Source: Paracoccus jeotgali
GTDB lineage: Bacteria; Pseudomonadota; Alphaproteobacteria; Rhodobacterales; Rhodobacteraceae
DNA length: 64,000 nt
Reading direction: 5' to 3'
NCBI RefSeq assembly: GCF_002865605.1
Contig: NZ_CP025583.1
Span: 538,501 to 602,500 of the forward strand
Below, one piece after another: positions 49,831-52,995 of this stretch (positions within the stretch are counted from its first letter, which is position 1; every line of letters starts with the position of its first letter). The notes under the pieces were generated by a model. That model saw only the letters and a list, made by a program, of their open reading frames with translations, did not search any database and was not told the DNA's origin. Made by a program: the position numbers and the translations under genes.

Positions 49831-49861
49831 TGTGATCACACCATTTCAGGCTGTGATCACA
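49831..49861 (-). promoter_or_regulatory. Paired TGTGATCACA operator upstream of sucC
   Basis: Two perfect 10-bp palindromes at 49831-49840 and 49852-49861, centres 21 bp apart (two helix turns). On the minus strand the proximal copy is followed by AAAC and, 20 bases after the copy ends, TTTGGCCG. The same layout precedes sdhC. Not a CRP site: the arms abut with no 6-base spacer. The regulator is unidentified. Confidence 0.75.
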
Positions 49862-50048
49862 AGCCTGCAGCAGCGCCGTCCGTGGCAGGCGATGTCGCGC
49901 GAAAAACGGTCCGCGCCGCTCACCGATAAAGCGAGTCGGCCACGGCACGCGGCCTGTCTCGCCTGCCGCTTTTCAGCTTGTCGTGGCGCAGAACCGGGGC
50001 AGGGGCAGCCGCTGTTTGTCCCGGTGCTCGCCGTGACCCATATAAACG

Positions 50049-50078
50049 AAAAAGGCGGCAGGAAACCCCGCCGCCCTT
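50049..50078 (-). terminator. mdh terminator
   Basis: On the minus strand AAGGGCGGC pairs with GCCGCCTT (one bulge) followed by TTTTTCGTTT. It lies 22 bases after the mdh stop. Confidence 0.75.
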
Positions 50079-50099
50079 GGTCCGAATGTCAGGCTGATC

Positions 50100-51062
50100 T
50101 CAGGCCAGCGAGACGTCGATGCCCTTGCAAGCCTCGACCAGACCCTTGACCGCATCGACCGACTTGTCGAACATCGCCTGCTCGTCCTTGTCCAGCTTGA
50201 TGTCGATGACCTTCTCGACGCCATTGGCGCCCAGCACGGTCGGCACGCCCACATACAGCCCCTTGAGACCGTAAGCGTTGTCGACATAGGCGGCGCAGGG
50301 CAGGACGCGCTTTTGATCCTTCAGATACGCCTCGGCCATCTCGATCGCCGAGGTGGCGGGCGCATAGAAGGCGCTGCCGGTCTTCAGCATGCCGACGATC
50401 TCGGCCCCGCCGTCGCGGGTGCGCTGCACGATGGCGTCCAGCTTGTCCTGCGTGGTCCAGCCCATCTTGACCAGATCGGGCAGCGGGATCCCGGCGACGG
50501 TGGAATAGCGGGTCAGCGGCACCATGGTGTCGCCGTGGCCGCCCAGCACAAAGGCCGTCACGTCACGCATCGAGACGCCGAATTCCAGCGACAGGAAGTG
50601 GCGGAACCGCGCCGAATCCAGCACCCCGGCCATGCCGACAACCTTCTCGACGGGCAGGCCCGAGAATTTCTGCAGCGCCCAGACCATCGCGTCCAGCGGG
50701 TTGGTGATGCAGATGACGAAGGCGTTGGGGGCGTGGGTCTTGATGCCCTCGCCCACGGCCTTCATGACCTTGAGGTTGATCCCCAGCAGGTCGTCCCGCG
50801 ACATGCCGGGCTTGCGCGGCACGCCCGCGGTCACGATGCACACATCGGCGCCGGCGATGTCGGCATAGTCGTTGGTGCCCTTCATCGCGGCGTCAAAGCC
50901 CTCGGCCGGACCGGACTGGGCGATGTCGAGCGCCTTGCCCTGCGGAATGCCTTCGGTGATGTCGAACAGCACGACATCCCCCAGCTCTTTCATCGCGGCC
51001 AGATGGGCAAGGGTGCCGCCGATCTGGCCGGCGCCGATAAGTGCGATCTTGGGACGGGCCAT
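50100..51062 (-). CDS. mdh: Malate dehydrogenase
   Basis: NAD-dependent malate/oxaloacetate conversion in the TCA cycle. 320 residues, LDH-like MDH type III common in alphaproteobacteria. NAD loop [27 protein letters not shown] (substrate Arg), [19 protein letters not shown] and catalytic [15 protein letters not shown] 5 bases before the ATG fixes 51062 over an upstream in-frame Met. Transcribed separately from suc by its own promoter and terminator. Confidence 0.97.
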
Positions 51063-51098
51063 ATTTTCCTCCGGGAAATGTTCAAATGGTCGTGGCAT

Positions 51099-51127
51099 GG
51101 GTTATTCCCTTGCCGTATCGCTTTCAA
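51099..51127 (-). promoter_or_regulatory. mdh promoter
   Basis: On the minus strand TTGAAA (51122-51127), 17-base spacer, TAACCC (51099-51104), ending 36 bases before the mdh start codon. No TGTGATCACA copy is present here. Confidence 0.5.
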
Positions 51128-51157
51128 GACGCATCGCAAGGACGAAAAGGCGCATCG

Positions 51158-51910
51158 GTGGAGTTATCGCAAACATCATGGCTGCTGGCCATTCTGGCAG
51201 CCCTTGCCGTCGGCATGGCCAAGGGCGGGCTGTCGATGGTGGGCATGATCTCGGTGCCGCTGCTGTCCTTGGTGATGTCGCCGGTGACGGCGGCGGGGGT
51301 GATGCTGCCGGTATATATCGTCAGCGATATCGGCGGGCTGATCGCGTTCCGGCGCAGTTTCGACCGCAGGGTGCTGGCCATGCTGCTGCCCGGCGCGGTC
51401 ACCGGGATCGGCCTGGGCTGGGCCACGGCGCATCTGGTCAACGACGCGGTGGTGCTGCTGATCGTGGGGCTGATCGGCGTCGGTTTCGCACTGAATGCGC
51501 TGATCCGCCCGGCGCTGGGACACGCGCGCAGCGCCGATCTGGGACGCGGCAGCTTCTGGGGCGCGATTGCCGGTTACACCAGCTTCGTCAGCCATTCCGG
51601 CGCGCCGCCCTATCAGGTCTATGTCCAGCCCTTGCGGCTGAACAGTACCGTCTATGCCGGTACGACGACGGTGTTTTTCGCCATCGTCAACGCGGTGAAG
51701 CTGATTCCCTATGCCATGCTGGGCCAACTGAACCCCGACAATCTGCGGCTGGCGGCGATCCTGTGCCTGCCGGCGATCATCGGCGTGGTGCTGGGGCTGA
51801 AACTGCTGAAGATCATCCCGCAAGAGCTGTTCTATCGCCTGATCACCGTGGGCCTGCTGATCGTGTCGGCGCGGCTGATCTGGGACGGGCTGACCACGCT
51901 GCTGGCCTGA
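51158..51910 (+). CDS. TauE/SafE-family permease
   Basis: 250 residues with about seven to eight spans. It has the two-repeat TauE/SafE pattern: GMAKGGLSMVGMISVPLL in the first half and GYTSFVSHSGAPPYQVYV in the second. The family exports or imports sulfur-containing organic anions such as sulfite or sulfoacetate; the substrate here is unknown. GTG start with AAGGCGCATCG upstream; a longer reading upstream would run into mdh. Divergent from mdh. Confidence 0.85.
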   Translation: MELSQTSWLLAILAALAVGMAKGGLSMVGMISVPLLSLVMSPVTAAGVMLPVYIVSDIGGLIAFRRSFDRRVLAMLLPGAVTGIGLGWATAHLVNDAVVLLIVGLIGVGFALNALIRPALGHARSADLGRGSFWGAIAGYTSFVSHSGAPPYQVYVQPLRLNSTVYAGTTTVFFAIVNAVKLIPYAMLGQLNPDNLRLAAILCLPAIIGVVLGLKLLKIIPQELFYRLITVGLLIVSARLIWDGLTTLLA

Positions 51911-51982
51911 GCGGAAGCCGTTGCGAGCGGGCGGCGAAGCTGACACTCTGCCCCTCTGAATGCAGCGACGAAAGGTAGCCAG

Positions 51983-52537
51983 ATGTTCATTCTTGTGCTG
52001 GGCGTGGCCCTGTGGTGGGCGGCCCATCTGTTCAAGCGCGCCGCGCCAAGGGCGCGGGCCGATATGGGCAGCGCGGGCCGGTCGGCGGTCAGCGCGGCGC
52101 TGATCCTGTCGATCCTGCTGATGATCTGGGGCTACCGCGTGGCGCCGCTGGGCGAGGTCTGGTGGGTCAAGACCGCGGCCATGACCGGGATCAACAACCT
52201 GCTGGTGCTGATCGGCTTTTATCTGTTCGCCGCCTCGGGGATGAAGACCGGCATCACCCGGCGGCTGCGCCATCCGCAGCTGATCGGCTTTCTGCTCTGG
52301 GCGGTGGCGCATCTGCTGGTCAATGGCGACATGCCCTCGCTGGTGCTGTTCGGCGGTCTGGCGCTGTGGGCGGTGGTCGAGATGATCGTCATCAACCGCA
52401 CCGTGCCCGGCTGGAAACCGCCGGCCCATGCCGTTCCGATCCGGAAGGAGGGCATGGCGATCATCGGCGCGCTGCTGGTCTATGGCGTGGTCGGGCTGAT
52501 CCACGCCTGGCTCGGCTATAACCCCTTCGGGTCCTGA
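51983..52537 (+). CDS. NnrU family membrane protein
   Basis: 184 residues, about five to six spans. Resembles the NnrU family: WWAAHLFKRAAPRARA at the N-terminus, GINNLLVLIGFYLFA, LRHPQLIGFLLWAVAHLLVNGD with conserved His residues (possible heme or metal ligands), and the AHAVPI loop. NnrU was named for denitrification clusters, but this form also occurs outside them; no nitrite or nitric oxide reductase gene is here. AAAGGTAG ribosome site. Confidence 0.82.
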   Translation: MFILVLGVALWWAAHLFKRAAPRARADMGSAGRSAVSAALILSILLMIWGYRVAPLGEVWWVKTAAMTGINNLLVLIGFYLFAASGMKTGITRRLRHPQLIGFLLWAVAHLLVNGDMPSLVLFGGLALWAVVEMIVINRTVPGWKPPAHAVPIRKEGMAIIGALLVYGVVGLIHAWLGYNPFGS

Positions 52538-52539
52538 GG

Positions 52540-52746
52540 ATGGCGACGCTTTATCGCCTGCTGACCGAGGATGACAGCGCGGCGTTTTGTCACAAGGTCA
52601 GCGCCGCGCTCGCCGCCGGCTGGGTGCTGCATGGCGACCCCTGCCTGTCCTTCGACGAGCGGCGCGGCGTCATGCGCTGCGCGCAGGCGGTGACCAAAGA
52701 GGTGGCGGGTGATTACAGCCCTGAGATGAAGCTGGGCGCGCAATAG
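52540..52746 (+). CDS. DUF1737 domain protein
   Basis: 68 residues, cytoplasmic, resembling the DUF1737 family: LYRLLTEDDSAAFCHKVSAAL, GWVLHGDPCLSFD and AVTKEV at the end. Function unknown. Starts 3 bases after the NnrU stop, so the two are co-transcribed. Confidence 0.82.
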   Translation: MATLYRLLTEDDSAAFCHKVSAALAAGWVLHGDPCLSFDERRGVMRCAQAVTKEVAGDYSPEMKLGAQ

Positions 52747-52819
52747 AGCGCGATTCGACAGGGGGTCGCGCGGCCAAACTGCCGCGCCGCGCCACCGCGA
52801 CTCGGATGTTCGCGCGGGA

Positions 52820-52850
52820 TGTGATCACACCCGCAAAGAGTGTGATCACA
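52820..52850 (+). promoter_or_regulatory. Paired TGTGATCACA operator upstream of sdhC
   Basis: Perfect palindromes at 52820-52829 and 52841-52850, centres 21 bp apart, then AAAC and, 20 bases after the second copy, TTTGGCCG (52871-52878). Same arrangement as before sucC. The 145 bases from here to the sdhC start hold no gene; no convincing -35/-10 pair was found. Confidence 0.75.
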
Positions 52851-52995
52851 AAACCCGCATTTCGGCTGAATTTGGCCGGGGGCTGGACAAGCACCGGTGA
52901 CAGGGGCGAAAAAGCCCTTATGACGATTTGCCAAATCCAGCCAGCCCGCGCGCCAGCTGTCGCCGCGGGTCTGCACAAGACCGAAGGGGAACGAC

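Follow-up and report, generated by a model that had tools for sequence, protein, structure and literature searches.

Paired palindromes upstream of the suc and sdh operons of Paracoccus jeotgali, probable tandem operators of the GntR/FCD-family activator AkgR

The stretch of 64,000 nucleotides of Paracoccus jeotgali DNA analysed here (contig NZ_CP025583.1, positions 538,501 to 602,500; the window) carries two operons of the tricarboxylic acid (TCA) cycle, suc and sdh, on opposite strands, and each is preceded by the same pair of palindromes. In this study we ask which protein could recognise both. Sequence comparison indicates that the paired palindromes are very probably tandem operators of AkgR, an activator of the GntR/FCD family. 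An initial annotation of the window had proposed one regulator for both operons and had stated that it could not be named; a name is now available, from a printed motif and from the co-occurrence of the pair with AkgR.

The window contains four exact copies of the palindromic 10-mer TGTGATCACA, which form two pairs with a centre spacing of 21 base pairs (bp) (Table 1). The first pair lies between mdh and sucC and serves genes of the minus strand, and the second is located 5' of sdhC on the plus strand, just as initially annotated. With up to one mismatch to TGTGATCACA, five matches were found in the window against 1.28 expected, a number reached by none of 100 shuffles. No exact copy is present upstream of mdh, in agreement with the same annotation. 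The whole 3.30-Mb genome holds 13 exact copies of TGTGATCACA, and since the nine remaining ones (L005-L013) all fall within mechanically defined open reading frames (ORFs) of at least 171 amino acids, an ORF being no proof of a gene, the exact pairs mark the suc and sdh operons.

AkgR was described in Rhodobacter sphaeroides and is, we assume, identical to RSP_0981. The accessible text of PMC6365646 reports GTGATCAC among the AkgR binding sites of that species and calls AkgR an activator, and the accessible text of PMC4344238 predicts that the GntR regulator RSP_0981 controls sucCD (succinyl-CoA synthetase), sdh (succinate dehydrogenase) and akgDH (alpha-ketoglutarate dehydrogenase). The window genome encodes an AkgR ortholog of 218 amino acids (P0001; G000:C1:1591194-1591847, minus strand) about 1 Mb from the window, with a GntR domain (PF00392, 49.0 bits for a cut-off of 27) and an FCD domain (PF07729, 65.8 bits for a cut-off of 24.3). 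P0001 shares 77 percent identity with the GntR protein that adjoins sdh in L062 and 78 percent with its counterpart in L070, two loci from other genera. At L062 the gene order, sucB-sucA-sucD-sucC-mdh-...-sdhCDAB-GntR, matches the RSP_0962-0981 numbering; unlike L062, the 20-kb locus of Cereibacter ovatus (L141) shows none of the TCA genes near akgR. The AkgR encoded at L062 shares 94 percent identity with the C. ovatus protein, so that the family compared here is probably Rhodobacteraceae. The window genome would therefore seem to hold an AkgR regulon, with the ortholog P0001, GTGATCAC at the target promoters, and suc (including 2-oxoglutarate dehydrogenase) and sdh as targets. McbR has a different regulon and site, and a match to it is no evidence of shared function; it is the closest solved structure by sequence (4p9f), aligned over residues 17-200 of P0001 with an E value of 2.3e-20.

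Of 148 relatives searched (91 genomes of the genus, among them the window's own, plus 57 from other families), 23 contain the exact TGTGATCACA pair, every one of them a member of the genus, and a reversed control pattern matched none of the 148. For promoter comparison 60 family genera and 30 loci of the genus were fetched, and a pair was accepted with up to four mismatches over both dyads, one exact core and a spacing of 20-22 bp. Far from being absent in relatives, a pair precedes sdhC in 85 of these 90 promoters (78 at 21 bp and 7 at 20 bp) and sucC in 48 of the 49 promoters lying within the fetched stretches (47 at 21 bp and one at 20 bp). A wider set of sdhC promoters from 140 family genera, which takes in all 13 genera without AkgR, was searched for spacings of 12-33 bp with up to three mismatches; it yielded 98 pairs at 21 bp, 13 at 20 bp and one each at 19, 22 and 33 bp, with none in 26 genera.

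The core motif alone behaves similarly. Among 61 order-level genomes, each a member of the same family, 60 contain the pattern GTGATCAC-N13-GTGATCAC, and the exception (G194) has pairs at 20 bp; of 141 class genomes outside the family, one contains this pattern. When the gap was left free between 2 and 32, paired GTGATCAC was detected in 53 of 61 family genomes, as well as in all 14 named genomes, which were chosen from the list of closest matches to L062 AkgR and include Cereibacter ovatus, Ruegeria marina and Roseobacter sp. MED193. Many random occurrences, which the initial annotation had named as evidence against its proposal, did not appear: among the 75 paired places listed for family genomes at this gap, a hand count gave 61 at 21 bp, 6 at 20 bp and only 8 at other spacings. 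These eight, among the matches listed, all lie within mechanical ORFs of at least 150 amino acids, which is weak evidence that they are unrelated sites, since the ORF at the fumC pair of L261, extended past its likely start, also covers that pair.

The arrangement shows some natural variants. G256 has a triple array of three copies in 21-bp steps, and G257 (L331), in which mdh is followed by sucA, has a pair between the two, in front of sucA. A third 21-bp pair is located upstream of fumC in G181 (L261, positions 2994 and 3015), which suggests that the regulon can recruit fumarase. The only pair outside the family, in G438, lies 5' of a GntR/FCD gene whose product is 28 percent identical to P0001, as part of an array (L257, 972-1020) in which GTGATCAC-like sites follow one another at 20 and 21 bp when one single-mismatch copy, seen by eye, is counted.

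The pair and AkgR tend to be present or absent together, which is the co-occurrence with one transcription-factor family that the initial annotation had put forward as a check. A search with P0001 gave matches at 1e-30 or better in 140 of 150 family genomes, of which 137 are orthologs with at least 63 percent identity; matches of 36-41 percent identity in G193, G231 and G242 were counted as paralogs and not as AkgR. Among 80 genera (79 fetched, those without AkgR on purpose, and the window), 66 have both pair and AkgR, 12 have neither, one has the pair only (G242) and one AkgR only (G295). Moreover, 12 of the 13 AkgR-less genera in the wider set lack any sdhC pair, and all 7 AkgR-less genomes among the 61 family genomes lack a pair at gaps of 2-32; the eighth pairless genome of those 61, G179, has AkgR and one-mismatch pairs at suc and sdh. 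On an SdhA tree, in which the pair was finally labelled as present at any TCA promoter (the first label took the sdhC site only) and from which G179 (L075) was excluded because its SdhA is too short, pair and AkgR each need 7 changes. Family-wide pairs at sucC and sdhC, together with this joint presence and absence, make the action of one regulator at both operons well supported by sequence, as had been proposed at the outset.

In G238, a genome without pairs, only an N-terminal AkgR fragment is found (G238:C56:33051-33317; residues 8-96, 64 percent identity, in a 119-amino-acid frame), as if regulator and sites had decayed together. A substitute element was sought in 12 of the AkgR-less sdh promoters as shared palindromic 8-mers and tandem repeats, and the best result was a GC palindrome common to two of them, nothing convincing.

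Downstream of the sdh pair, GTGAC is found in 85 of 95 promoters, mostly followed after 16 bases by a TA-bearing hexamer, which together resemble a sigma-70 core. A model of this core, built without distance information, was applied to the 114 family genera (of 140) in which the pair is present; the same promoters had served to train it. The 10 promoters with a pair and a sub-threshold score were dropped, leaving 104. Shuffled downstream sequences reached the threshold in 10 of 180 cases, so that the 104 may include a few false ones. The distance from the proximal centre to the -35 element falls into six classes, at 40 bp (1 promoter), 52-53 (4), 61-65 (91), 72-75 (5), 83-84 (2) and 94 (1), with none of the 104 between them and with class means 10.7 bp apart; in the genus set it is 51-52 bp in 30 of 30. 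In simulations that took centre and period from the data, about 1 run in 10,000 matched a 10.5-bp period this closely when the nine shifts counted on the tree were used; with six shifts of equal mean deviation, about 4 in 10,000 did. A conserved block 3' of the suc pair, AAACGGTT here and TACCGTTT in the family consensus, is possibly a core promoter as well; of 63 promoters, 44 have it at 44-46 bp and 7 at 35-36 bp.

These features suggest how the sites could work. One AkgR dimer would occupy each GTGATCAC dyad, so that a pair would carry two dimers on one DNA face, separated by two helix turns and able to cooperate. The sdh pair would sit upstream of a predicted sigma-70-type core promoter, its proximal centre near -85 here relative to a putative start site some 7 bases past 52924. 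Like a class-I activator that touches the alpha C-terminal domains of RNA polymerase, it would exert its effect from that one face, at distances of whole turns. In class-I CRP-dependent promoters of E. coli, the activator is bound upstream of -35 and is active at distances differing by whole helix turns. Whole-turn distances are thus common to both systems, although the protein family and the operator differ and any contact of AkgR with polymerase is putative. We infer that AkgR binds in P. jeotgali, that it does so cooperatively and in response to an effector, and that two dimers on one face contact polymerase in class-I-like activation. Pairs of this kind could coordinate 2-oxoglutarate dehydrogenase, succinyl-CoA synthetase and succinate dehydrogenase. 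The cooperative binding to one face proposed in the initial annotation would be consistent with the nearly constant spacing, with the triple arrays and with promoter distances that change in helix-turn steps.

Several observations weigh against the assignment to AkgR or against the stepped arrangement. G242, an assembly of 320 contigs, carries two inexact pairs besides the exact ones at suc and sdh, and no AkgR was found in it, while G295 has AkgR (64 percent) with no sdhC pair and one single-mismatch pair elsewhere, and the AkgR-less G151 and G232 have one single-mismatch pair each, these last three being pattern matches only. Three loci with divergent AkgR (L236, L238 and L239) keep the suc pair and show no sdhC site, from which sdh may leave the AkgR regulon before suc. 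On well-supported branches of the SdhA tree there are only 5 independent contrasts, of which 3 to 5 agree and none opposes (sign test 0.06-0.25). With the sdhC-only label, the pair needs 12 changes instead of 7 and agreement averages 3.9 of 5 (sign test 0.06-0.63), 3 of 200 pairings containing one opposing contrast. At suc, 12 of the 63 promoters fall outside the two main distance groups, so that the same whole-turn tendency is less clean there, and the suc block, found de novo, is the weaker one. Finally, no GTGATCAC site lies upstream of akgR in the window genome itself, and autoregulation of akgR there was rejected for want of a site before the gene.

FCD proteins of the GntR family are often repressors, and AkgR could bind the pair to repress, or to switch, instead of simply activating. 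Single GTGATCAC sites start 19-43 bases 5' of akgR in 16 of 80 loci, in positions that look like those of a repressor; these loci were not drawn at random but are those nearest to the L062 protein, and their akgR starts were extrapolated from the alignment. We nevertheless consider a repressing pair improbable: it lies well upstream of the predicted sdh -35 element, at distances stepped by helix turns, and AkgR is named an activator in the accessible text of PMC6365646.

It is distinctly improbable that the sites are bound by another regulator travelling with AkgR, such as another GntR/FCD paralog. The co-occurrence of AkgR and pair is correlational, the window genome has 12 GntR domains above the Pfam cut-off, and G242, with its pairs and no AkgR ortholog, encodes two weaker relatives at 36 and 34 percent identity. 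A paralog would, however, have to account for the printed AkgR motif (PMC6365646, accessible text) and for the sites directly 5' of those 16 akgR genes, and P0001 is the sole match at 1e-30 or better in the window genome.

Use of the paired sites by CceR, a carbon regulator of the LacI family, is hardly credible: operators of that family usually have a central CG, the palindrome has GATC at its centre, and CceR was rejected on this site shape. Furthermore, according to the accessible text of PMC11323563, the CceR regulon of Paracoccus denitrificans does not include sdh, 2-oxoglutarate dehydrogenase or fumarase, for which other mechanisms are suggested. The chance that a protein of the CRP/FNR type binds the pair is close to negligible, even with TGTGA and TCACA halves that are CRP-like. 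CRP and FNR sites need a spacer between their half sites, and the halves abut in the conserved sites, so that such proteins were rejected on site shape, as they had been in the initial annotation.

The initial annotation also gave weight to a second likeness between the two promoters, which is real in the window and is not conserved elsewhere. In both, AAAC directly follows the proximal copy, and TTTGGCCG, located by eye, starts 20 bases past the palindrome. In other genera, a set that takes in the named loci, TTTGGCCG is found at this position in 0 of 66 sdhC and 0 of 62 sucC promoters; within the genus, 1 of 30 sdhC promoters has it, that of the window itself. When two mismatches and positions +18 to +22 are allowed, the counts are 1 of 66, 2 of 62 and 5 of 30. 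AAAC follows the proximal copy in 3 of 66, 3 of 62 and 3 of 30 of the same promoters, and the leading AA in 40, 52 and 26 of them. The shared AAAC and TTTGGCCG were therefore rejected as a regulatory element.

AkgR as a regulator, its core motif and its targets are already known or predicted in print. Indeed, R. sphaeroides AkgR has the same core motif GTGATCAC (PMC6365646) and the same predicted targets, sucCD, akgDH and sdh (PMC4344238), in the accessible texts; the 21-bp pairing, its family-wide fixation and the helix-turn steps are described in the present analysis. The searchable literature, a scope that leaves Imam et al. 2015 outside, yielded no report of the near-fixed pairing, of its fixation in the family, of its disappearance together with AkgR or of the stepped distance, and the pairing was not found in the accessible parts of PMC11323563, PMC4419725, PMC4344238, PMC5343134 and PMC6365646. 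Another GntR protein, PS417_07240 of a Pseudomonas deoxyribonate cluster, has a conserved GTGATCAC at -47 to -40 of its own gene and is 32 percent identical to AkgR; it differs by its single palindrome and its different pathway (PMC6365646, accessible text).

Our work puts a name to the regulator of the central TCA block in a large bacterial family and describes a concrete architecture for it; natural evidence that an FCD/GntR activator may act from one helix face comes from the stepped distances. AkgR at such pairs is an obvious candidate for TCA control in P. denitrificans, a species not identified among the compared genomes. As a defined part, the paired site could also be used to tune TCA flux. 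A broader reading, whose prospects we judge evenly balanced when it is taken as a whole, would place AkgR, together with its GTGATCAC-binding relatives among the GntR/FCD proteins, in a class of activators whose dimers cooperate on two-turn arrays. In the course of evolution such an array might shift against the promoter in whole turns only, in which case selection would keep the helix face and not the distance, and the array would be the missing TCA control where sdh and 2-oxoglutarate dehydrogenase stand outside the CceR regulon, for example in P. denitrificans, whose promoters were not identified here.

Table 1. Coordinates of the operators, predicted promoter elements and genes in the window.
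Feature	Coordinates	Strand	Basis
Distal TGTGATCACA dyad, suc promoter	49852..49861	-	exact match and conserved position
Proximal TGTGATCACA dyad, suc promoter	49831..49840	-	centre 21 bp from distal dyad; exact match and conserved position
Conserved block 3' of suc pair, AAACGGTT (family consensus TACCGTTT)	49784..49791	-	de novo block; coordinates by hand
Second half of suc block, TGTGTCA, 16 bases further	49761..49767	-	de novo block; coordinates by hand
Distal TGTGATCACA dyad, sdh promoter	52820..52829	+	exact match and conserved position
Proximal TGTGATCACA dyad, sdh promoter	52841..52850	+	exact match and conserved position
Predicted sdh -35, GTGACA	52897..52902	+	51 bp from proximal dyad centre; family core model
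Predicted sdh -10, TATGAC	52919..52924	+	16-bp spacer; coordinates by hand
sucC, succinyl-CoA synthetase beta, first suc operon gene	48531..49724	-	Pfam ATP-grasp_2, Ligase_CoA; start by homology (ATG at 49724)
sucD, succinyl-CoA synthetase alpha	47063..47938	-	Pfam CoA_binding, Ligase_CoA; start chosen by analyst
sucA, 2-oxoglutarate dehydrogenase E1	43471..46443	-	Pfam
sucB, 2-oxoacid dehydrogenase E2	41861..43474	-	Pfam
lpd-like pyridine nucleotide-disulphide oxidoreductase	39594..41066	-	Pfam
mdh	50100-51062	-	Pfam
sdhC, first sdh operon gene	52996..53385	+	Pfam Sdh_cyt
sdhD	53397..53786	+	Pfam
sdhA	53794..55596	+	Pfam
sdhB	56396..57175	+	Pfam

Within the suc operon, an ORF of 178 amino acids with no Pfam match (47998-48534, minus strand) is inserted between sucC and sucD and overlaps the end of sucC by four bases, whereas sucC directly adjoins sucD in L062. 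Just 3' of sdhB, on the opposite strand, lies an ORF with an ArsR-like helix-turn-helix (57228-57968, minus strand), and the next one after it, named by eye, resembles the a subunit of ATP synthase.

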